Positions 1 through 12,683 of a stretch of DNA of 48,971 bases are shown here, piece after piece. The stretch comes from Weissella confusa (GTDB lineage Bacteria > Bacillota > Bacilli > Lactobacillales > Lactobacillaceae), in assembly GCF_004766315.1 (NCBI RefSeq), contig NZ_PVSN01000036.1, forward strand, positions 1 to 48,971. The letters are read 5' to 3'. The notes beneath the pieces were generated by a model. The model ran no database searches, was not told where the DNA came from, and saw nothing but the letters and a program-made list of their open reading frames with translations. Within the stretch, counting starts at the first letter, position 1, and every line of letters starts with the position of its first letter. Made by a program: the position numbers and the translations under genes.

Positions 1-143
1 CCAACACAGCGGGCAATCTCACGAGAGATTGTCGAAGCGCTTCTACCAATTTCTTTTGCAATGCTACGCATTGACAACCCTTCTCTGAGTAAAACTTCTA
101 TACGTCCGCGATCAAATGCGGTAAGCTGATGATAATGACTCAT
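1..143 (-). CDS. IS30-family transposase, N-terminal part (cut by window edge)
   Basis: The reverse strand from the ATG at 143-141 reads MSHYHQLTAFDRGRIEVLL and continues with a helix-turn-helix containing RSIAKEIGRSASTISREIAR. This is the typical DNA-binding N-terminus of IS30-family DDE transposases. Only about 47 codons lie in the window, so the catalytic DDE domain is not seen. A GAGG ribosome-site core lies just upstream on the reverse strand. The start codon sits inside a long inverted repeat described separately. Family assignment is by recognition of the HTH; the exact IS name cannot be given. Confidence 0.85.
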   Translation of the reverse strand, partial: MSHYHQLTAFDRGRIEVLLREGLSMRSIAKEIGRSASTISREIARCV

Positions 144-207
144 AATGTTTCCTCGCGTTCTGTATGTTCTAGACAAACTACATTTTACGCTGGTTCATTA
201 TGAGTCA
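136..207 (-). repeat. Inverted repeat enclosing the IS30 transposase start codon
   Basis: TGACTCATAATG at 136-147 and CATTATGAGTCA at 196-207 are perfect 12-base inverted repeats separated by 48 bases. The 136-147 arm contains the start codon at 143-141. An RNA that begins outside the element and reads through could fold so that the start codon is base-paired, while one starting inside the arms could not. This layout is known for other insertion sequences as protection against read-through expression; here the function is inferred. Confidence 0.6.
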
Positions 208-253
208 GTTTTTATTTAGCTTAGTGTTGCACTTGAATTGTAAATTCAAGCGC

Positions 254-1633: not shown

Positions 1634-1693
1634 GATACGCTACCTTTCTTGAAGCTCTTCACGTTGATCTTAGTATCCAAGTTTTCAAAACAC

Positions 1694-1868
1694 GGTTTCT
1701 AGAACCAAACTACTTTGAGCGAATTTGCTAAAACCAGTGAAGCAGCCATTTTTGTGCGCGGCCTCAAGGGCCAAAAAAAGCCACGGCTTTTGCTTCACTA
1801 CCACTATAAAGTAATAGAGGCGTACATGAACTCCGTCGAGTTTCATGTACGCCCCTAAGCTTAGTAGT
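1694..1868 (-). ncRNA. Candidate IS110 bridge RNA
   Basis: The region upstream of the transposase folds, in the transposase direction, into three consecutive stem-loops. The first pairs 1842-1853 with 1819-1830 (12 perfect pairs). The second pairs 1791-1799 with 1736-1744 (9 perfect pairs) around a large interior region that itself holds small hairpins. The third pairs 1728-1735 with 1694-1702 and closes CAAA/TTTG at 1706-1709 and 1724-1727. This order and the roughly 170-base span match the described IS110/IS621 bridge RNA: a 5' stem-loop, a target-binding loop and a donor-binding loop. In the third stem-loop, 1707-1714 (AAACTACT) is the exact complement of 1863-1870 at the element end, as a donor guide should be. 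Function is inferred. Confidence 0.6.
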
Positions 1869-2413
1869 TTTTCTACGTTGAACCAATCGAAGACTTTAAC
1901 GCCCTGTACCGTCAGCGACAACGTTGGCAATTGGGAGAGATGGAAGTGGTGCACATGTTTGAACCAAAACATTTGTTATCTTTCAAACACCTTACGACAA
2001 ACTTTATGGTTCGACGTCTGTTAATTGACCACACATTGCTATTTCCACGGCTTATCTGGTTATTCGCACCTATGGTCTTAGTCGTAAATGGGTTTTCGCC
2101 TGCAATGTTGGCGTTGATTTATATTGCGATGTACCTGATGTATGTTTTCGCAGGAGCAATCTATTTTTTGCTTGCTCAGGTGTACCTAAGGCCGTTTCCT
2201 GAAGCGTTCGCTTGTTACGTTAAGACCTGGTACGTCACGTTATTACTGCCGGCCTATAAGTTTCTGTTGTCATGGGTGCTATTGCTAGCCTTGCTAAATC
2301 GATCAAAGTCGCGTAAGTGGCAAGGCCGTGGGATTCGTGATGAACTATCCGCCATCAGAGAGACTATTCGGCGCGATACGAAACACATAATCAAAAGTGA
2401 GGAATCAAAATGA
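1868..2413 (+). pseudogene. XrtG-associated family 2 glycosyltransferase, C-terminal fragment interrupted by IS110
   Basis: An open frame with no start of its own begins right after an in-frame TAG at 1865-1867 inside the IS110 end. It reads through YRQRQRWQLGEMEV, the Q-x-x-RW motif that binds the growing chain in processive family 2 glycosyltransferases, followed by two to three membrane segments and a basic C-terminal tail. The catalytic A domain with its DxD residues is missing, so the product cannot work. The tail resembles the TIGR03111 glycosyltransferase that accompanies Gram-positive exosortase G, and the next two genes are the other two usual companions. The stop overlaps the next start by four bases (ATGA), indicating translational coupling in the original operon. 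A TTG-initiated fragment from 1931 is possible but would not be functional. Confidence 0.8.
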
Positions 2414-3927
2414 ATCATCGCATTATGGACGTAATCGATACTTGCGTCATGGGCCTGTTTATTATTTTGTTTGGGCTGACACTCTATTTTGCGGGTGCTT
2501 CAGTTAACTTACAGCGCGATGGCGTGACGTTTGCTGGCGTCGTCGGGGTACTGGTCTTAGTTGGCAGCTATCTCATCACACAGACGACATTGTTGCCGTG
2601 GTGTTACACGCACCGAATGGCTTTGTTAAGTGGTGGGTTTATCATTGCGATAATGTGGCAGTTCACTTTTGTGACACTCTTTCATCCTGCCATCGGTTTT
2701 GATGCAGGCGCCATACATGAAGCGTTACAACATCCGGAAGACATTGATTTAATTGGGTATTTTAGTCAAAATACCAACAACTTGCCATTATTGCTTGTGT
2801 ATGACTGGTTAAGTAACATCAGCCACACAATCAGCTGGTTATTTTTTGATTACGTTAGTCTGATTTGTGTCGATGTTGCGTTGCTTGTCAACCTGGTGAC
2901 GATGTGCATTGTGCGTCGTGAGAATGTCGGGCGACTTCTCTGGATTGAGACATTATTTATGCTTGTTTTCCCATGGATTGTTGTGCCGTACTCAGATACG
3001 GCGGTTCTGCCATTGGTTGCACTGTTATTTTTGCTGATGGCTTGCCTGCAAAAAGCGCAAGCATGGTGGCAAACGCTCATTTTGTCTGCGTCACTAGCGG
3101 CTTGCGCAGTGGCCACTTATTTCATCAAGCCCTCGGCCATTATTCCGTTAATTGCGCTGTGCCTTGTGCTGATTAGATCAGTTATCACATCAGACAAGGT
3201 CGCGTTAGGGAAGCGTCTGAAAACTGCTTGTTTAGTGATTGTGACAATTACAGTTAGCGGTCTAGGCGCCTATACTGTTGGTCAGCAGGTGATTGATGCG
3301 CAAACTGTTATTAGAATCAACAAAGGTCTTACCATTCCACCGATTCACTTCATGAGCATGGGAGTTTCTGGGGATGGTGGCTATAACGAGGCAGACGCTC
3401 TTAAGATGGCTGAATTACCAAAACGTTCTGATAAGGTTGATTACTCAAAGCAACAACTGATTAAAAGATTACGCGAGAAGGGTGTCATTGGCTATTTGGC
3501 TTTCTTAGTGAAAAAGCAAGGCAATAATACCGCAGATGGTACGTTTGCTTGGTTAAAAGAAGGTCATTTCTTTAAAAATGGTCATCCAAATGAGCCTAAG
3601 TGGTTGAGCAATTGGGTGACCACAGACGGTAAACACTTAAAGGATTTGCAATTCATCACCCAAATGTGGTGGCTGCTAATATTGGTGACCATTGCAATAG
3701 GACTACGGAAGCAAGATGATTGGTCTCGTTTATGTTGGTTAGCCATTTTAGGTGGTTTTATGTACCTCTTGTTATTTGAAGGTGGTCGTAGTCGATACCT
3801 CATACAGTTTTTGCCAGCATTTTTGATTTTAGCAGCATATCAAGCTGGTTATGTTTGGCAACTGTTCAACCGGTTTGGAAAACGATGCTGGTGGATATTC
3901 TTCGGAAAGGAGTATGCGCATGATTGA
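2410..3927 (+). CDS. XrtG-associated polytopic membrane glycosyltransferase-like protein (TIGR03766-type)
   Basis: A 505-residue protein with about 11-12 membrane segments and one larger extracytoplasmic region (about residues 290-410). It shows the layout of GT-C-type membrane glycosyltransferases, including the acidic FDAGAIHE loop after the second or third segment and GGRSRYL near the C-terminus. It most resembles the XrtG-associated family TIGR03766 of lactobacilli and lactococci. The ATG overlaps the stop of the preceding glycosyltransferase and its own end overlaps the next gene by eight bases, so the three form one operon. It is intact, but its partner glycosyltransferase is broken. 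The biochemical reaction is unknown; addition of a lipid-linked sugar to a surface product is the inference. Confidence 0.72.
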   Translation: MNHRIMDVIDTCVMGLFIILFGLTLYFAGASVNLQRDGVTFAGVVGVLVLVGSYLITQTTLLPWCYTHRMALLSGGFIIAIMWQFTFVTLFHPAIGFDAGAIHEALQHPEDIDLIGYFSQNTNNLPLLLVYDWLSNISHTISWLFFDYVSLICVDVALLVNLVTMCIVRRENVGRLLWIETLFMLVFPWIVVPYSDTAVLPLVALLFLLMACLQKAQAWWQTLILSASLAACAVATYFIKPSAIIPLIALCLVLIRSVITSDKVALGKRLKTACLVIVTITVSGLGAYTVGQQVIDAQTVIRINKGLTIPPIHFMSMGVSGDGGYNEADALKMAELPKRSDKVDYSKQQLIKRLREKGVIGYLAFLVKKQGNNTADGTFAWLKEGHFFKNGHPNEPKWLSNWVTTDGKHLKDLQFITQMWWLLILVTIAIGLRKQDDWSRLCWLAILGGFMYLLLFEGGRSRYLIQFLPAFLILAAYQAGYVWQLFNRFGKRCWWIFFGKEYAHD

Positions 3928-4291
3928 GGCACATTATCGATTGAAATTTTATATTAATGCCTATCACTTCATTCGATGGAACGGTCGCGATGGCGAGACA
4001 CATCCGCACACTTGGGAAATCGTGAGTGATTTTGCATGTGATATGGAGGAGAAAGTCCCATTTTATGAGTACGAAACAAAAATCAACACGTTTCTATCAA
4101 CGTACGATGGACAGGTACTGAATGACATTGCCCCGTTTGATAAGATTAATCCGTCTTTGGAAAACTTTGCGACGGAGCTGTTTGATCGTTTACAAACGCA
4201 TCCTGAATTGATTGGGTCGGCTGTTAAATTAGAAGAGTTGGCAGTGAGTGAAGGCCCAACTCGAACGTATGTCTTAACAAATCGAGACTGA
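3920..4291 (+). CDS. 6-pyruvoyl-tetrahydropterin-synthase-related protein (TIGR03112-type, XrtG locus)
   Basis: A small cytoplasmic protein of 123 residues. The ATG at 3920 is chosen because AAAGGAG ends seven bases upstream; an ATG at 3914 is too close. The sequence shows the PTPS/QueD fold signature: H16 in NAYHF and H28/H30 in ETHPHTWEI, which correspond to the zinc-binding histidines, followed by a DKINPSLEN segment that resembles the LNPTxEN part of QueD. The usual catalytic cysteine is not evident. Such a related domain is a known companion of exosortase G loci, with unknown function there. It lies immediately after the membrane protein with an eight-base overlap. Pterin or queuosine synthesis is not supported by the neighbours. 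Confidence 0.72.
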   Translation: MIEAHYRLKFYINAYHFIRWNGRDGETHPHTWEIVSDFACDMEEKVPFYEYETKINTFLSTYDGQVLNDIAPFDKINPSLENFATELFDRLQTHPELIGSAVKLEELAVSEGPTRTYVLTNRD

Positions 4292-4299
4292 GGCAAGTT

Positions 4300-4698
4300 A
4301 TGAAAAATGCATTGGTACTTTTTACGTCCATTGTCGGTGTTATCTTGGTGTTTTCACTGACAATTGAAACAATCTATGTTGGTGGTGGCTTTTCAAATAA
4401 CACCCATGCACAAAAGGTGTCTTCGGTATCTAAACAGTCATGGACTAGAAAAGAATTTGAAAATTTGCAAACACTTGATTGGGATGATGAAACAGACCAA
4501 CAGTATGACTATCTATTATCAAGACATGGCAAAGCAGATCGACAATCAGATAAATCAATCGATTTTGGTCATGATGAAAAGATTACCCAACAGACGTTAA
4601 CCTGGGAACAAAAACATTGCAAGGTTGTGTTAGGCTTTTATCGCTATCAGGAAAACGGTGATTGGGTTTTGCATGATAAAACGTGGATTCAGAAATAA
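4300..4698 (+). CDS. Small membrane-anchored extracytoplasmic protein, unknown
   Basis: A 132-residue protein with an uncleaved signal anchor (about residues 4-27), a short linker and a hydrophilic domain. The domain carries WTRKEFENLQTLDWDD near residue 50, then HGKAD, then alternating tryptophan-rich strands (LTWEQ, GDWVLHDKTW). It resembles the short lipoprotein-like periplasmic domains that pair an alpha segment with a few beta strands, but I do not recognise the family. It starts eight bases after the PTPS-related gene and ends at a strong terminator, so it belongs to the XrtG-associated operon. A role outside the membrane with the surface product is inferred from position only. Confidence 0.7.
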   Translation: MKNALVLFTSIVGVILVFSLTIETIYVGGGFSNNTHAQKVSSVSKQSWTRKEFENLQTLDWDDETDQQYDYLLSRHGKADRQSDKSIDFGHDEKITQQTLTWEQKHCKVVLGFYRYQENGDWVLHDKTWIQK

Positions 4699-4704
4699 CT
4701 TATT

Positions 4705-4748
4705 AGCAAGTTAACGAGAAATCGTTGACTTGCTCTTTTTTATTTTTT
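4705..4748 (+). terminator. Rho-independent terminator of the XrtG-associated operon
   Basis: AGCAAGTTAACGA at 4705-4717 pairs with 4722-4734 (one G-U pair) around a GAAA loop and is followed by a T-rich run. Confidence 0.85.
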
Positions 4749-4828
4749 GACGAATAGAAAATGATACATTTTTTAAAAGCATTATAACAACATACAATGT
4801 ACTGAATTTGAGAGCTAGGGGGCTTTGT

Positions 4829-6105
4829 ATGTATACGTTCATTTATGCCATACTATATTTTCTGGCAAATATTACTATCATTCTACCGTACGAAATGGTG
4901 TTACAAAATTACACAAATTCTGAATCCGGAACATATTTTCTAATGCTATTACTTGTGTATGGGGTTAGGTCTGTGGCCGTTTGGCTATTGCCGGATCAAA
5001 TTGCGACCGGTCCGTTTATGAACTTAAGAAGTAGTGTTTCTACCGCTTGTATCGGATTTATGTTTATGCCATTTATTAAGTCAGATACGAAGGTGTTGGC
5101 TATACTTGTTGCCGTTTTATTAGGTTATTCATCGGCAACTATTTGGCCTCTTTTTCTAACGTACAAGTCTGAAAAGTTGTTTCGCCCGGTAAAGCCAGCA
5201 ACTTTATTAATTGATTTGCTGGTTATCATTGTTACTCTTGTTATACTGCAAATTGCATTTCCGATGGACGTTAGCAGTATTCTGCTGGGCCTGCTATACT
5301 TCGCAGCGTTGTTTGTTGTGCCAAAGACTGCTGTCAATAATTTGGCTACAGACGGTAAGGCCATAGGTCTAGTTCTGGCTGTCGTGTTGTTAGACTTCAT
5401 CGCCCGTGTTAGCCTTGCATCACCAATGTTAAATAATAGCCAAGCGGTATTTGAAGAAAAGTTGGTCATCGGGATGCTGCTGACTTTGTCTATCGTTGTC
5501 AGTTTCTTGGCCGTATTAGAGTTTGGGCGGCTTAAGCATTCTGAATTGTTTTTTGCAACCGTGTTAAGGGGCCTTATAATGGCGTATATACTGCTATTTA
5601 TGCCGCTGATACTTGCGTCATTGATTGGCTCAGAAAATGCGACTTTCGTCACGTACGGTTTGTATATTTTTGGTTTTGAGTTTGGCGGAATAATGCAGAC
5701 TAAGCTGACGCATAAAAAACGCCAATTCATTTTGGGGGCCGGCTTCGTGATTGGCTTTTCCCGAACCCCGTGATGAAATTATTGGCCATTTTACTTTTGG
5801 CAACATTCGTCGGTAGTATAAATCAGGATCTTAACCGATTTCACATTCAAAACGGGCGTCGGCTTTCCTTTAAAGGTATTACTCATAAGTATAAAATCTC
5901 GAATTTGGGTAACCAATTATTTTATATCATTTTCATTGCAGGTACGTGTGCCCTGACGTTTTGGGAAACTGATTACCCGATAAAATTCTTCCCAGGAACA
6001 CTTTCGGAGCAAACCGCGCAATTCTTTTCAATAGCGATGAACGTCGTCACAGGACTAGTAGCTAGCTGGTTATTGTTCAAGGCTACAAAGAAAAAACTAG
6101 AATAG
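4829..6105 (+). pseudogene. Polytopic membrane protein, MFS-like, split by a frameshift
   Basis: Two frames together would encode a protein with about 12 membrane segments. The first runs from the ATG at 4829 (AGGGGG six bases upstream) to a TGA at 5771-5773, giving nine to ten segments. The second frame continues from 5770 to 6105 with three more segments and a basic tail. Adding one base to the C-run at 5766-5769 joins them without interruption (SRTP then VMKLLAILLLA), so a one-base loss is likely. Alternatively the GTGA overlap at 5770-5773 could be translational coupling of two subunits, which I find less likely because the first product would stop in mid-helix. Size suggests a major-facilitator-type carrier; the substrate is unknown. 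Confidence 0.6.
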
Positions 6106-6115
6106 CACCCAAATG

Positions 6116-6159
6116 AAAAGGGGGACATGTGACCACATAGGCCATGTGCCCCTTTTTTA
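6116..6159 (+). terminator. Rho-independent terminator
   Basis: AAAAGGGGGACATG (6116-6129) pairs with the arm at 6143-6156 (CATGTGCCCC then T-run), with one mismatch, followed by six T. Confidence 0.75.
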
Positions 6160-6273
6160 TTGTGTACTGTTCATAATAAAAAACACATGCCATTTCTAGG
6201 CATATAAGGAGGCATGGAGTGTGCAAGTATGCAATCAGATTTTAGTTTACATAATATTTTTAAGTGAAAATTG

Positions 6274-6295
6274 AACCCTTGATTTATCAAGGGTT
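6274..6295. repeat. 22-base perfect palindrome upstream of dnaG
   Basis: AACCCTTGAT at 6274-6283 and ATCAAGGGTT at 6286-6295 are perfect arms around TT. No T-run follows, so it is more like a protein-binding dyad than a terminator. It lies about 32 bases upstream of the dnaG -35 element. Confidence 0.6.
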
Positions 6296-6326
6296 ACAGC
6301 TAGTCAATGGGGGTTGACAAACTCGC

Positions 6327-6354
6327 TTGCATATTGTGCATTCAAGCGTATAAT
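6327..6354 (+). promoter_or_regulatory. Promoter of dnaG-rpoD
   Basis: TTGCAT at 6327-6332 and TATAAT at 6349-6354 are separated by 16 bases. This places the transcript start near 6361, so an in-frame extension of dnaG to 6307 would precede the promoter and is excluded. A perfect TTGACA at 6314-6319 has no -10 at the right distance. Confidence 0.6.
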
Positions 6355-6393
6355 TATAAGAGCTGGAAATGGTCATTTTTAGAGTTGGGGGTG

Positions 6394-8301
6394 ATGACAA
6401 TCGCAACACGTATTCCAGAACAGTTAGTCGAAGAAATTCGACAACGTGTTAATATCGTTGATGTCATTTCGCCATATGTACATCTGAAGAAACAGGGACG
6501 TAATCTGTTTGGGCTTTGCCCGTTCCACGATGAACGTACACCGTCTTTCTCAGTTAATGAAGATAAACAAATTTACCACTGCTTCTCTTGCGGTCGTGGT
6601 GGTAACGTCTTTAGCTTTATCATGGATATCGATAATGCAACTTTCCCACAAGCTGTGGCAAAGGTTGCCCCATTTGCGGGTGTTGACTTAGATGCATCTT
6701 ATACATCTGATGAAGCAACGGAAGTGGTTGATCCACAAATCAAGGCGCTGCGTGAGCTATACGCAGATGCGACAAAGTTGTACCACCACTTGCTTGTTAA
6801 TACTGAGGCAGGTGAGGGTGCCCTTGATTACCTACACGATCGAGGCTTGGATGATGGGACAATTGATGCATTTATGCTCGGGTTTGCACCTGAAAACGAT
6901 GTATTGATTAACTATTTCCAAGAACAACAAGTAGATTATCAATTACTACGATCATCAGAACTATTCATCGAATGGGATGATGGAACGTTGCACGATCGTT
7001 TTACGAATCGTGTCCTTTTCACGATTCGTGATAGTGCTGGGCACCCGATTGCGTTCTCTGGCCGTCGGCTGTCAAATGATGATTCGCAAGCAAAGTATAT
7101 GAATTCGCCGGAGAGTCCTTTATTTAACAAGTCGCAAGAGTTGTTTAATTTGGACCTTGCCAAGGGTGCGATTCGTAAGCAGAAGCACGCCGTTGTGTTT
7201 GAAGGCTTCATGGACGTTATTGCGGCGTTCCAAGCCGGTATTCAAAACGGTGTTGCCTCAATGGGAACATCTTTGACACCAGAACAAGTTCAAGTTTTGT
7301 CACGTATGGCTGACAATGTTTCGATCAGTTATGATTCTGACGCTGCTGGTCAAAAGGCGACGAAGCGAGCTTTGGACCTTGTTGCGCAAAATGGTCACAT
7401 CTCGGCTAATGTTATCCACATTCCGGATAACCAAGACCCGGATGAATTCTTGCGTTCGAATGATGTGAGTGCATTTCTAAATGTGTTGTCACACAACACT
7501 GAAGATCCCGTTGCATTTAACATTCGTTACTTGAAGACGGATCGTAACCTCAATAATCAAACAGAATTATTTGCTTATGTGAGTGATGTACTGGCAGTTA
7601 TTGCGACAGTCCCAGAACCAGTTATGCGCGAGACTTATTTGCGCGAAATTTCTGAGGAATTCAACATTGGGATGGAAGCCTTGCAAGATCAGCTTCGCCC
7701 ATTGTTGTTGCAACAACAGGCAAATCGTTCAAATCCAAGGTCGAACAATAATCGTCAATCAGGGTATCGCCGACCAGAACCAAATTATCCGGTCGCGCCA
7801 AATGGTGATTGGCAGGCAGATGCACCGGCACCTATTCCGGCGCCAACGCCACGTACAATTTCACGTGTAGAAAAAGCTGAACGCATGTTGTTGGCATGGA
7901 TGCTACGTGATAACGATGTTTGGCTACAGGTAACGGGTACGCCAGACTTTACGTTTGTTGACGTACCATATGAGACGCTATTAATGTTGGCTACCGGCTA
8001 CCGTGAGACACACGGTAATGAGCCGATTGTTGATATGGCAGGCCTCATGGACTTTGTTCAAAAGCCGGAATTGACCCGTATTTTGGCAACGCTCGATGAC
8101 TTTGATGACGAATTATTCGCTGATCGTAGTCAAGTTGGCATGTATATTCAATTTATTAGCCATGATGCACCATTATCTGATAGAATTAATAGGTTACAGC
8201 GTCAGATTAAAGAAGCTAATCAAATGCACAATGACGCGCTGGTTGCCCAACTTAGTGTTGAGTACATGGCCGCATTACGTGAACAACAGACCCACAAGTA
8301 A
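6394..8301 (+). CDS. dnaG: DNA primase DnaG
   Basis: Synthesises RNA primers for DNA replication. The 635-residue protein starts at the ATG at 6394 ([10 protein letters not shown]), preceded closely by a G-run; a GTG at 6391 is an alternative. Domains in order: CHC2 zinc ribbon with C42, H45, C63 and C66; DnaG core; Toprim domain with E270 in EGFMDVI and D314/D316 in YDSDAAG; and a C-terminal helicase-binding region after a proline- and asparagine-rich linker at about residues 450-490. All key residues are present and length is normal. It is followed by rpoD after 14 bases, the classical macromolecular synthesis operon order, here without rpsU in front. Confidence 0.97.
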
Positions 8302-8315
8302 TTAAGGAGGCCGCT

Positions 8316-9449
8316 ATGGCAGAAAAGCAAGCACCAATTTCAGCAAAGTTCGATCAAGCTGAATTTGATAAGGCAGTTAAGAACATCATCAAGGAGTTCA
8401 AGGCCGACAAGGAAATTAAAGAAAATGCTCTCCAAGATGCTTTGGTAAAGCCAATGCGTTTGAACGCTGATCAAATCGATGAACTATACGAGAAGATTGA
8501 ATCAGCTGGTATCTCTGTCGTTGATGAAAACGGCGAGCCAACCGCACGTGCGCTTGAAAACAAGAAGACCAAGTTGTCAGAAAAGGAATTGAAGCAAGCT
8601 GCTGATGCACCTACTGGCATGAAGATTAATGACCCTGTTCGTATGTACCTAAAGGAAATCGGACGTGTGTCATTGTTGACTGGTGATGAAGAAGTTGCTT
8701 TGGCCGAGCGTATTGAGCAAGGTGATGAAACTGCTAAGCAAGAATTGGCTGAAGCTAACTTGCGTTTGGTTGTTTCTATCGCTAAGCGTTACGTTGGTCG
8801 TGGTATGCAATTCTTGGACTTGATTCAAGAAGGAAACATGGGATTGATGAAGGCTGTTGAGAAGTTTGATTACCGCAAGGGATTCAAGTTCTCAACTTAT
8901 GCAACTTGGTGGATTCGTCAAGCGATTACTCGTGCAATCGCCGACCAAGCTCGTACAATCCGTATTCCTGTGCACATGGTTGAAACGATCAACAAGTTGA
9001 TTCGTATTCAACGTAACTTGTTGCAAGATTTGGGTCGCGAACCTACGCCTGAAGAAATCGGTGCCGAAATGGACATCGTGACTGACAAGGTCCGTGATAT
9101 TTTGAAGATTGCACAAGAGCCAGTTTCATTGGAAACACCAATTGGTGAAGAGGATGATTCACACTTGGGAGACTTCATTGAAGATAATGAAGCTATTTCA
9201 CCTGCTGATTCAGCTGCTTACCAAATGCTTAAGGAACAATTGGAATCAGTTTTGGACACGTTGACTGACCGTGAAGAGAACGTTTTGCGTTTGCGTTTCG
9301 GTTTGGAAGATGGTCGTACGCGTACTTTGGAAGAAGTTGGTAAGGTATTTGGGGTTACTCGTGAGCGTATCCGTCAAATCGAAGCCAAGGCACTTCGTAA
9401 GTTGCGCCACCCATCACGTTCAAAGCAATTGCGTGATTTCTTGGATTAA
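8316..9449 (+). CDS. rpoD: RNA polymerase primary sigma factor (sigma A, RpoD)
   Basis: The housekeeping sigma factor that directs RNA polymerase to TTGACA/TATAAT promoters. The 377-residue protein has an N-terminal region 1.1-like acidic part, region 1.2 ([12 protein letters not shown]), region 2 with the melting segment [14 protein letters not shown], region 3 and region 4 with the -35-binding helix [19 protein letters not shown] strong AAGGAGG lies eight bases before the ATG. Codon use is strongly biased, as for a highly expressed gene. It is the last gene of the dnaG operon and ends at a strong terminator. Confidence 0.97.
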
Positions 9450-9463
9450 TTAAGGCGAAATGA

Positions 9464-9500
9464 AAAGGGCGAGGGCATTGCACCTCGCCCTTTCTTTTTT
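9464..9500 (+). terminator. Terminator after rpoD
   Basis: AAAGGGCGAGG (9464-9474) pairs perfectly with CCTCGCCCTTT (9483-9493) around an eight-base loop, followed by a T-run. Confidence 0.92.
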
Positions 9501-9520
9501 GTCAGAGCATGGAGCAGACA

Positions 9521-10489
9521 ATGAAAAAAATACTCTTTGGATTGGCGACGTTGATATTAACGTTCACGGTCATGCATGGTGTTTTCGCAGATGATAATCC
9601 GCCATACACGGTGACGCCAGCAATTCCCAAAACGCAATTAGATAGTCAAAATAAGAATTACCTTGATTTGTTGCTTAACCCAAACCAGGTCGAATCGGTT
9701 TCATTTGATATTAAGAACAATTCAAATGACGCGTTGTCTTTGAACGTCGAGACTGGTTCAGCGTCAACTTCACCATTGGGACAGGTGCTGTATAACGACA
9801 AGAACGTCATCGGCAATGTTGGGCCACAAATGGAAAACCTGATTCATTTAGACCAACAAACGATTCAAGTGGCGCCAAAGGCAGACGCAAAAGTAACAGG
9901 TACCATTTCGATGCCGAATACGCCGGTTGACGGGATTATTGCAGGTGGTGTGACTTTCTCGTTGCCGGCTTCGAAAAACGCAGATGCTGTTGAAACAACG
10001 GTCGCTGTGTTGGCACGAAACACACGTAATCTCCCGGCGACGACAGCTGAACTTCACGCGGTTTCATACGAAAAGGTCAACAAGCAAACTGGTTTTGCAG
10101 TCGCAGTCGCCAATACTTCAGGATCGTTTATCAACGGCGCAACGTTTACGACAAAAATTATCAATGTGGCAACAAAGAAGACGGTGATAGAAGAGACGCG
10201 ACGTAATGCGCAGCTAGCGCCTAACTCGACAATGACATATTGGGTTAAAAATAATGTTAAAAACTTGCCTGGTGGTAAATATCGTGTTCAGGTGGTCGCA
10301 AATTGGAGCGGTATGAACCAAACTTGGCAAAAGCAAATCAACTTACCTAAAACAACTGCACCAGTAACACAAGAGCCCCAAAAGGTGCCGTTTATGGAAG
10401 CGTTACTGTACGCGTTTAGTTTGTTGGCTATCGCGGCGATTGTTTTAGCCGTCATGTGGTTTAAAAACATGCGATTCTTAGTTAAATAA
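9521..10489 (+). CDS. WxL-interacting-type surface protein (DUF916 and DUF3324)
   Basis: A 322-residue exported protein. The ATG at 9521 is chosen because GGAG lies six bases upstream, better than the ATG at 9509. It has a signal peptide (cleavage after FADD-like VFA, about residue 24), a DUF916 domain (about residues 30-150, beginning YTVTPAIPKTQ), a DUF3324 domain (about 155-280) and a C-terminal membrane helix with a basic tail (about 293-322). This is the layout of proteins that hold WxL-domain surface proteins, which bind peptidoglycan and host ligands. No WxL protein or further csc-cluster gene lies nearby. It is followed after about 110 bases by a degenerate paralogue. Confidence 0.85.
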   Translation: MKKILFGLATLILTFTVMHGVFADDNPPYTVTPAIPKTQLDSQNKNYLDLLLNPNQVESVSFDIKNNSNDALSLNVETGSASTSPLGQVLYNDKNVIGNVGPQMENLIHLDQQTIQVAPKADAKVTGTISMPNTPVDGIIAGGVTFSLPASKNADAVETTVAVLARNTRNLPATTAELHAVSYEKVNKQTGFAVAVANTSGSFINGATFTTKIINVATKKTVIEETRRNAQLAPNSTMTYWVKNNVKNLPGGKYRVQVVANWSGMNQTWQKQINLPKTTAPVTQEPQKVPFMEALLYAFSLLAIAAIVLAVMWFKNMRFLVK

Positions 10490-10602
10490 GACATCTTTAT
10501 TCAAAACTATACGGTAAGATATTCCTACTAAAGCGTAGTTACGTGCATTTTACAGGAAAAATTATTATAATAAGTGAAAATAGGGGTTATATTGGTTATG
10601 AA

Positions 10603-11499
10603 TTGCGACATGCAGTTTATGCGGTCGGGTTAGCGCTCGCTTTGATTGGCGTATCAAAGCCGGTTTCAGCTGACACGTTACCCGCATATGATATTACAGC
10701 GGATATTCCAGCGTCTCAAATCGACAAGAATAACTTGTCATCAATTGATTTGAAATTGGCGCCTGGTCAAAAAGAACAAGTGACGTTCTATATCAAGAAT
10801 AACACCGATTCAGAAATGACCTTGCGTCTGACTGGTGGTACGGCAATGACGCGTGATAACGGTAAGGTTAATTACGTTACGGGTAGCCAAAATGTGACAG
10901 GACAACTAGTGGGTGGTGTCTCATTTGTACGATCAACGACATCAAATACGGCATCTGAGATTCCGGTTATCCTACAAAACGACACAACGCCAGTTAAGCC
11001 AGTTCTAAAAGTAGGCAAGGCAAGTCTAAGTGATTTGTCGTCTGATCGTGTATTAGGCGTGACGTTGAGCAATAAGGCGAACACGTTGGTTAAGGATGCA
11101 ACTGTTACAACGAGCGTGACAGATAAGAATGATAAGGTGGTTTACGAAAAAGACGGTAATGTTGATATCGCGCCACAATCAAGTTTTACATTCGACATTA
11201 AGAAGAACATTAAGTCAATTAAGGTTGGCACATACAAGGTTCATGTTACTGTCGCCTCAGGTGATGTTAAAACAACCGAAACACGCACGTTAAAGGTCAC
11301 TGCCGCACAAGTTGCGCAATTGGCCGGCCAACAAGTTAGTGCAGCTGATGATTGGAAGAATCCAGCCAATTGGTGGAAGCTACTGATCTGGCCAATCGTC
11401 GTCTTTGTGGTTGTGTTCTTGGCAGGTCGTTACCTATTGCCAAAGCGCCGTCGCAAGCACAATGGACCGCGTGAAGATTTGAAGCGTAAGGATGATTAA
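10603..11499 (+). CDS. Second DUF916/DUF3324 surface protein, shortened and with a damaged start
   Basis: A paralogue of the preceding gene with signal peptide (ending PVSA, then DTLPAYDIT), a DUF916 start, a DUF3324 domain, a C-terminal membrane helix and a very basic tail. Compared with the neighbour, about 50 residues are missing inside DUF916: the text goes from NVTG directly to QLVGGVSF. No in-frame ATG precedes the signal peptide. An ATG at 10598 with AGGGG upstream runs into a stop after ten codons, and one extra base after it would restore MN-LRHAVYAVGL. Translation may use the TTG at 10603 or a GTG at 10543, or the gene may be dead. The reading frame is otherwise open, so I list it as coding with doubt. 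Confidence 0.6.
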   Translation: MRHAVYAVGLALALIGVSKPVSADTLPAYDITADIPASQIDKNNLSSIDLKLAPGQKEQVTFYIKNNTDSEMTLRLTGGTAMTRDNGKVNYVTGSQNVTGQLVGGVSFVRSTTSNTASEIPVILQNDTTPVKPVLKVGKASLSDLSSDRVLGVTLSNKANTLVKDATVTTSVTDKNDKVVYEKDGNVDIAPQSSFTFDIKKNIKSIKVGTYKVHVTVASGDVKTTETRTLKVTAAQVAQLAGQQVSAADDWKNPANWWKLLIWPIVVFVVVFLAGRYLLPKRRRKHNGPREDLKRKDD

Positions 11500-11510
11500 T
11501 AGATTATCTA

Positions 11511-11543
11511 AAAAGGGATTAGTCACTGGCTAATCCCTTTTTT
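11511..11543 (+). terminator. Terminator after the DUF916 pair
   Basis: AAAAGGGATTAG (11511-11522) pairs perfectly with CTAATCCCTTTT (11530-11541), loop of seven, T-run. Confidence 0.9.
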
Positions 11544-11545
11544 AT

Positions 11546-11561
11546 TTCACAAGCTTGTGAA
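11546..11561. repeat. 16-base perfect palindrome
   Basis: TTCACAAGCTTGTGAA is fully self-complementary. It lies just after the terminator and about 95 bases upstream of the next promoter. It may be an operator; no regulator is assigned. Confidence 0.5.
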
Positions 11562-11655
11562 GAAAAATCAACAACATAATATTCAGAATGGCTATAAATA
11601 GGCTTTTTAAATCTACAAAAACACATTTTTTCACAAAATAGATTGCTCAAAATGC

Positions 11656-11683
11656 TTGCATTACATCTTTAAAGGCTTACAAT
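11656..11683 (+). promoter_or_regulatory. Promoter of the YdcZ-type transporter
   Basis: TTGCAT (11656-11661) and TACAAT (11678-11683) with 16 bases between. The transcript leader before the GTG start is about 40 bases. Confidence 0.5.
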
Positions 11684-11729
11684 AATAAAGCATTCATTAA
11701 TAACGATTTTATTTTTTAGGAGAAGAACA

Positions 11730-12683
11730 GTGAATTTTGTATTTCTAGGTTTGTCATTGTTTGCTGGTTTCATGCTTGCGAACCAAAACCCAATTAACGC
11801 TGATATGAAGAAGGTGGTGGGCTCACCATTTATCTCAGCAGCAATCTCATTTTTGGTTGGTTCTGTCTTTTTGGCAATTGTTAGTGCCGTTAAGTCACAT
11901 CAAGTATTTCCAACAATGACTTTCATTCAATCAAATCCAGCATGGATTTGGTTGGGTGGTGTGCTGGGTGCCATTTATTTGACATCAAACGTTTTGCTAT
12001 TCCCACGCTTGGGCGCAATCCAAACAGTTGTTTTGCCAATCCTTGGTCAAATTTTGATGGGTACGCTTATTGATACATTTGGCTGGTTTGGATCACAACC
12101 AATTCCTTTGACGGCGCTACGTGTTATCGGTGTGATTGTTTTGATTGCTGGTGTGGTCGTCGCGGTTGTTTTGCCAAACGTCTTGAACAAGGATGTTGAA
12201 GCAATGGATAAGGCGATCCAAGCTAAGGAAACACACACTGAATTGCTAGGTTGGCGTGTATGGGCTATTATTGCTGGTGCATTCTCAGCTATGCAACAAG
12301 CCATCAACGGTCGCTTGGGTGCCTTGCTACATGCACCTGCCCAAGGATCATTCATTTCATTCTTTGTTGGCTTTATTTTGATCACGATTGTTGCATTGAT
12401 TGTGGACAAGCGTTTGCCAAAGATGTCAGAATTGAAGCAAGCTAAGAGCTGGAACTGGCTCGGCGGTATTCTTGGTGGTTTGTTCGTCTTTGCCAGCGTT
12501 TTGTCAGTACCTCAAATTGGTGCGGGATTGACGATTACGATGGGATTGATTGGTCAAATCGTTGGATCTATGTTGGTTCAACAATTCGGCTGGTGGCGTT
12601 CAGCTAAGATTAGCGTGTCACGTATTCAAATCTTGGGAGTTGTTGTGATGGCCGCTGGTGTGGTCTTCATCAAGTTCCTATAA
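11730..12683 (+). CDS. DMT-superfamily transporter, tandem YdcZ/DUF606 domains
   Basis: A 317-residue inner-membrane protein with ten membrane segments, made of two similar halves. Each half has the YdcZ pattern: a start like LAGFMLANQNPINADM or FSAMQQAINGRLG, then FISAAISFLVGS or SFISFFVGFI, then LGGVLGAIYLTS or LGGILGGLFVFAS, and a final VIGVIVLIAGVV or ILGVVVMAAGVV helix. Single-domain YdcZ proteins are about 150 residues, so this is the fused form. The start is the GTG at 11730 with AGGAGA upstream. It stands alone between its own promoter and terminator. The substrate is not known. Confidence 0.85.
   Translation: MNFVFLGLSLFAGFMLANQNPINADMKKVVGSPFISAAISFLVGSVFLAIVSAVKSHQVFPTMTFIQSNPAWIWLGGVLGAIYLTSNVLLFPRLGAIQTVVLPILGQILMGTLIDTFGWFGSQPIPLTALRVIGVIVLIAGVVVAVVLPNVLNKDVEAMDKAIQAKETHTELLGWRVWAIIAGAFSAMQQAINGRLGALLHAPAQGSFISFFVGFILITIVALIVDKRLPKMSELKQAKSWNWLGGILGGLFVFASVLSVPQIGAGLTITMGLIGQIVGSMLVQQFGWWRSAKISVSRIQILGVVVMAAGVVFIKFL

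Follow-up and report, generated by a model that had tools for sequence, protein, structure and literature searches.

The XrtG/Firmicu-CTERM system of Gram-positive bacteria comprises an exosortase (XrtG, TIGR03110), a substrate with a C-terminal Firmicu-CTERM signal (TIGR04145), a family 2 glycosyltransferase (GT2, TIGR03111), a membrane glycosyltransferase (TIGR03766) and a protein related to 6-pyruvoyl-tetrahydropterin synthase (PTPS; TIGR03112). Here we describe a stretch of 48,971 nucleotides from Weissella confusa (contig NZ_PVSN01000036.1), the whole of which is called the window. It is contig C5 of genome G000 (2.2 Mb over 95 contigs), and it holds only the rear half of this system, without XrtG and the substrate. 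All five members are found at one locus in G006, a genome listed as the same species, with XrtG, TIGR04145 and TIGR03111 scoring above cut-off.

Among the closest known systems are the PEP-CTERM/EpsH systems (excerpts of PMC1569441). The two are alike in belonging to the exosortase family (Pfam PF09721), in the C-terminal signal, membrane helix and basic tail, and in a link to exopolysaccharide genes. They differ in that XrtG usually has one substrate per locus, as against up to 65 per genome, in the signal motif (GGSTGP-type rather than PEP), and in the Gram-positive hosts of XrtG. According to excerpts of PMC9850573, a PEP-CTERM protein binds polymer to cells. A second point of comparison is the gts operon of Lactobacillus acidophilus, for which excerpts of PMC6123363 describe an exopolysaccharide linked to cyclic di-GMP (c-di-GMP), the receptor being PdeB, a degenerate EAL protein. 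Like the XrtG operons, it places a GT2 synthase next to EAL and GGDEF genes in a Lactobacillaceae host; on the other hand, those excerpts mention no partner from the exosortase, Firmicu-CTERM, TIGR03766 or TIGR03112 families. Of the XrtG loci looked at, just two have a PdeB-like EAL protein as a neighbour (L030 and L041). At both, a second GT2 (in two frames in L030) and a membrane-anchored EAL-like protein adjoin the XrtG locus (L030 13125-15281, L041 3943-6603), recalling the gts operon. Finally, self-aggregating Lactiplantibacillus plantarum over-expresses XrtG genes (excerpts of PMC12854382). As far as these excerpts go, the gts operon, the aggregating strain and the polymer-binding PEP-CTERM protein give support from other systems to the idea of a polysaccharide controlled by c-di-GMP. 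No paper was found on the control, product or mechanism steps of the Gram-positive XrtG operon, in a search to which subscription journals and preprints were mostly outside coverage.

The XrtG remnant in the window

Profile searches identify positions 1869-4291 of the window as the rear half of an XrtG operon, consisting of the C-terminus of TIGR03111 followed by TIGR03766 and TIGR03112 (Table 1). The initial annotation, made from the DNA alone, had described a remnant of an XrtG-associated sugar locus in overlapping frames, with a destroyed glycosyltransferase that retained QRQRW and a membrane tail, beside an intact polytopic membrane protein and an intact PTPS-related protein. This description is borne out by the family matches of the three successive plus-strand frames, which overlap by a few bases. 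The frame at 1868-2410 matches TIGR03111 with an E-value of 1.6e-50 and 172 bits; the score falls short of the 364-bit cut-off, since the frame spans just profile positions 263-438 of 439. It still has QRQRW and the membrane tail, while D148, D150 and G246-E247-D248, invariant in 48/48 relatives, are gone, and the first 267 residues of the glycosyltransferase were not found anywhere in the G000 genome. The polytopic partner is a TIGR03766 protein, and both the TIGR03766 and the TIGR03112 genes are free of internal stops and equal in length to those of G006.

The comparison with a related strain that had been suggested at the outset reveals what is missing. Window positions 1869-11913 align with G006 in two pieces, at 98.7% and 99.5% identity, and the homology starts at 1869. 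Upstream of the equivalent position, G006 carries EAL, GGDEF, Firmicu-CTERM, XrtG and the glycosyltransferase front, all in the same orientation. Its glycosyltransferase is full-length, and adjoins xrtG (161 bits, cut-off 103) and a Firmicu-CTERM substrate (84 bits, cut-off 50) that is the sole one in G006. When G000 was searched with 7.25 kb of this DNA, the matches were the outer flank, on contig C68 (to just past a transporter gene), and 25 bases of the glycosyltransferase. About 4.0 kb (10175-14174 of L028, the G006 locus), running from the end of the transporter gene to a point midway through the glycosyltransferase, was not found in G000. This stretch holds five genes or gene parts, namely the glycosyltransferase front, xrtG, the Firmicu-CTERM substrate, GGDEF and EAL. 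The family searches of the G000 genome likewise gave no match to XrtG, to Firmicu-CTERM or to GGDEF (EAL was not searched genome-wide). Among close relatives, XrtG is present in G006 and in three further Weissella genomes (G003, G004 and G014), so that the assignment of the remnant to an XrtG system, for which an absence of xrtG from the genome and its relatives would have been a difficulty, stands.

The front half of the operon, 4.0 kb, has almost certainly been deleted relative to the same-species genome. Given that G000 has no XrtG, the window carries a remnant and not a working member of the XrtG system, which would not be functional in this strain. Two results go beyond the initial annotation: the loss also takes the xrtG, substrate, GGDEF and EAL genes, and there is a statistical link between XrtG and c-di-GMP. 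Taken together, the material is probably best explained by a deletion of the operon front in this strain and a c-di-GMP-controlled polysaccharide operon in its intact relatives.

Table 1. Features in the first 5 kb of the window (aa, amino acids).
Positions	Strand	Feature	Evidence
1..250	-	IS30-family element end; first 47 transposase residues at 143-3	HTH_38 E 2e-17; match to IS30 transposase of NZ_CP117885.1
434..1633	-	IS110 transposase, 399 aa	Pfam DEDD_Tnp_IS110 and Transposase_20
1634..1868		Presumed IS110 element end region, up to the glycosyltransferase junction	G006 homology from 1869; plasmid IS110 similarity to 1876
1869..2413	+	TIGR03111 glycosyltransferase remnant, C-terminal 180 residues	Profile search; QRQRW and membrane tail kept, D-x-D and GED gone
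2410..3927	+	TIGR03766, XrtG-associated membrane glycosyltransferase, 505 aa, intact	535 bits, cut-off 500; G006 copy equally long
3920..4291	+	TIGR03112, 6-pyruvoyl-tetrahydropterin-synthase-related, 123 aa, intact	109 bits, cut-off 69; G006 copy equally long
4300..4698	+	Small protein, 132 aa	Relatives trail the operon at four Weissella XrtG loci (L028, L029, L030, L031)

In the first 6 kb the order is IS30 end, IS110, the rest of TIGR03111, TIGR03766, TIGR03112, the small protein and a membrane gene, and then dnaG. The small protein has no NCBIfam or Pfam family above cut-off. The membrane gene (4808-6105) is divided into two frames by a frameshift; G006 has an intact copy of 432 aa.

XrtG loci in relatives

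The intact system was studied in 52 loci from 50 genomes, these being the 46 XrtG genomes among 251 Lactobacillaceae plus four Weissella genomes. The absence of XrtG from ten other Weissella (G001, G009, G015, G016, G019, G022, G023, G025, G026 and G027) rests on a TIGR03111 search. With profiles built from these same loci, a Firmicu-CTERM-like protein (using a loose profile, E 1e-3) and TIGR03111 are found at all 52, TIGR03766 at 48 and TIGR03112 at 41. One of the loci lacking both of the last two, L157, starts at a contig end. The NCBIfam model TIGR04145 matches in all 28 XrtG genomes searched, in 26 of them above cut-off. The C-terminal signal is mostly GGSTGP or near it: 45/55 frames fit a loose pattern and 10/55 do not. 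No carbohydrate-binding domain was found in the Firmicu-CTERM proteins, of which six were tested with no Pfam match above cut-off.

In XrtG itself, C97, R140 and H160 are invariant in 50/50 sequences, forming the Cys-Arg-His triad; these residues have catalytic roles in exosortases. The D-x-D, GED and QRQRW motifs of the TIGR03111 GT2, conserved in 48/48, are the marks of processive synthases. Relatives of TIGR03766 also occur on plasmids of Lactococcus and Lacticaseibacillus. It is worth adding that a contig labelled as an archaeal metagenome-assembled genome (Candidatus Methanovirga, L115) contains a complete XrtG operon that includes EAL and GGDEF, and is possibly a misbinned bacterial contig.

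Association with cyclic di-GMP

The 251 Lactobacillaceae genomes were searched for GGDEF proteins (PF00990, E-values of at most 1e-6). They are present in 44/46 genomes with XrtG, against 66/205 without (Fisher test, 2e-16). The association persists when stratified by genus, with 44 XrtG genomes having GGDEF where 34.6 are expected (P 6e-8), and when genera are counted instead of genomes (13/15 with XrtG, 8/25 without, P 0.001). Within a single genus, g17, the figures are 5/5 and 0/5. Matching for genome size gives 40/40 against 31.4 expected (P 4e-7), in a test that covers the ten genera varying in both traits (36 of the 46 XrtG genomes) and four Weissella, leaves out G007 (66% complete), and drops the genera to which both GGDEF-less XrtG genomes belong.

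The genes are also found together. A GGDEF gene lies within about 10 kb of 9/52 XrtG loci, where 1.2 would be expected (P 2e-6, the related species not being independent), and an EAL gene within the same distance of 7/52. In a further set of named loci, to which 80 of 152 relatives were kept, GGDEF or EAL is found at 22/80. The genes of W. cibaria run EAL, GGDEF, CTERM, XrtG, GT2, TIGR03766, TIGR03112 and are separated by short gaps or overlap; Enterococcus sp. 10A9 and E. gallinarum have the order XrtG, GT2, TIGR03112, TIGR03766, EAL, GGDEF, CTERM. Ligilactobacillus saerimneri and Limosilactobacillus have other orders again, with 4-base overlaps and GGDEF/EAL inside the operon. The overlaps were measured on the longest frame, and some of the start codons may be too early. 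Of the GGDEF frames, 10/11 from the 52 loci and 16/20 from the named loci have a GGDEF/GGEEF-like motif, and at least two of the motif-negative frames read GGEEI or GGEEL. The co-occurrence and the shared operons are evidence that XrtG and the c-di-GMP genes work together, and not of how they do so.

The TIGR03112 protein

TIGR03112 resembles PTPS/QueD in family, by profile search (PF01242; PDB 2dj6 at E 7e-9 and 4ntk at E 2e-5), and in its zinc histidines. A PDB search with the single window sequence gave chance hits only. Two alignments were made, one without frames of at least 160 aa (62 of 64 loci plus the window) and one of 44 rows (the window and 43 loci). In the 44 rows, H16 and H28 are nearly invariant and H30 is invariant, in agreement with the conservation initially proposed for these three residues; N68 and E81 are also invariant. 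In QueD/PTPS enzymes a Cys and an Asp-His pair have catalytic roles. In TIGR03112 the residues aligned with the Asp-His pair are Ser-Gly, and the Cys position varies, whereas 2dj6, the best PDB hit, also lacks the Cys and keeps Asp-His. An ordinary pterin or queuosine enzyme was rejected on these grounds.

The PTPS fold family binds guanine-like rings. Pfam found no PilZ domain in three GT2 proteins tested, and there is no PilZ match at all in 36/50 XrtG genomes. TIGR03112 is a candidate c-di-GMP receptor by exclusion only, and the fact that it was not found at 11/52 loci speaks against it as a general receptor. The boldest version of this idea makes XrtG operons a new kind of polysaccharide machine that c-di-GMP activates: TIGR03112, related to the pterin synthases and keeping their zinc but not all of their catalytic residues, would be the c-di-GMP (guanine) receptor that switches the synthase on, and XrtG would tether the polymer to a surface protein dedicated to it. 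We regard this version as a long shot.

Mobile elements at the break and decay of the operon

The IS110 element that had been noted beside the remnant is recognised by Pfam from its minus-strand transposase, and positions 1308-1876 are about 76% similar to IS110 relatives on plasmids of Lacticaseibacillus and Lactiplantibacillus. Between the start of the transposase and the junction there are about 235 non-coding bases; this is the region where IS110 elements carry their guide RNA.

The first 250 bases of the window match an annotated IS30 transposase of plasmid NZ_CP117885.1, at 77% in DNA (the match stopping at 250) and at 60% in protein. Contig C68 ends, and C5 begins, in sequence that matches the two ends of this one gene, at 56% and 60% protein identity respectively. 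The C68 tail, for which neither the Pfam and NCBIfam families nor plasmid DNA gave a match, was placed in IS30 by the protein search alone. Both ends are multicopy in G000: the end seen in the window recurs at 15 other places, and at 11/11 of those checked it ends the contig. Because the two contig ends match two ends of one gene, the simplest reading is that one copy of IS30 joins C68 to C5; we infer this bridge rather than observe it, because each end has some 15 further copies. Insertion sequences would have caused the deletion, with IS30 and IS110 sequence both standing at the break.

The surviving genes have changed little. Between G000 and G006, TIGR03766 has 12 synonymous and 12 non-synonymous changes (rate ratio 0.29) and TIGR03112 has one of each, as against 11 and 4 in dnaG (0.10) and 5 and 0 in rpoD. 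These substitutions are few and are not assigned to a branch; they are therefore compatible with a recent deletion and prove little. Both strains have Ala in TIGR03112 where 92% of aligned rows carry Glu. Truncated or interrupted TIGR03111 genes are also found in G045, G082, G100, G215 and G221, indicating that decay of the XrtG system is recurrent. The fragment in G045, a genome of another genus without an XrtG match, lies at C25:17999-18532, and its span (profile positions 258-436) is C-terminal and near-identical to that in the window.

Discussion

On balance, the intact operon would build and display a surface polysaccharide under c-di-GMP control, a prediction from sequence that we favour narrowly. 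GGDEF and EAL proteins would set the level of c-di-GMP, which, through a receptor other than a PilZ domain of the synthase, would activate the TIGR03111 GT2 to polymerise sugar and move the polymer across the membrane. The TIGR03766 membrane enzyme would modify or transfer the glycan, and XrtG, using its triad, would cut the Firmicu-CTERM protein at the GGSTGP-type signal and join it to the glycan or the envelope.

Several observations weigh against this account of the operon and its loss. No receptor for c-di-GMP has been identified in the XrtG operons, and two of the genomes that carry XrtG (G037 and G167) gave no match to GGDEF. In Weissella taken alone the association is not significant (GGDEF in 4/4 against 11/23, P 0.08). 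In a related type of system, exopolysaccharide production by Methylobacillus was unaffected by loss of the exosortase homologue EpsH (excerpts of PMC1569441). The GGDEF and EAL genes of G006 are each split across two overlapping frames (L028 12213-14092), where those of W. cibaria are whole, at 391 and 238 aa. Decay may have begun before the deletion, or the split frames may reflect an assembly or sequencing error in G006. For the deletion itself, there is no direct read across the proposed IS30 bridge.

Of the other explanations, the one that survives best is that the system makes no exopolysaccharide and instead glycosylates a protein or wall polymer, the GT2 making a lipid-linked sugar that TIGR03766 transfers to the Firmicu-CTERM protein as acceptor. 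A single dedicated Firmicu-CTERM gene adjoining XrtG would suit this, as would TIGR03766, a large multi-spanning protein that is a glycosyltransferase by its NCBIfam name. The processive-synthase motifs present in every GT2 aligned point instead to a polymer, and c-di-GMP genes suit a polymer that is regulated, so that we think this explanation rather doubtful, although it deserves to be kept in mind.

It is also unlikely, and slightly more so, that GGDEF and XrtG share genomes and neighbourhoods through a surface-associated lifestyle, without direct control. As many as 43/52 XrtG loci have no GGDEF gene inside about 10 kb, and the 66 genomes with GGDEF and without XrtG mean that c-di-GMP has other uses; both facts count for a shared lifestyle and against the c-di-GMP-controlled operon. 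A lifestyle effect does not readily account for a link that persists within genera and at similar genome size, or for overlapping frames in several genera with differing gene orders.

Within the strain itself, TIGR03766 and TIGR03112 could still function with another glycosyltransferase: both genes are intact, per site they differ from G006 more by synonymous than by non-synonymous change, and G000 has other, distant GT2 matches. With XrtG and the substrate gone, and a nearly invariant Glu lost from TIGR03112 in both strains, such residual function is improbable. Finally, the draft nature of the assembly (95 contigs, at least 11 of them ending in the same IS30 sequence) might suggest that the front half is present and was merely lost between contigs, but we reject such a gap as very improbable, since a search with the 7.25-kb G006 block recovered nothing beyond its outer flank and a 25-base piece of the glycosyltransferase, the family searches were empty at a listed completeness of 99.99%, and the flanking contig ends are the two ends of one IS30 type.

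The deletion thus remains the preferred account of the window, and it implies that a strain can seemingly lose the XrtG module, together with its only GGDEF gene, through what looks like one deletion. The XrtG system is already named in the databases; the link to c-di-GMP, if true, would give it a signal and a predicted phenotype, namely surface polymer and aggregation.

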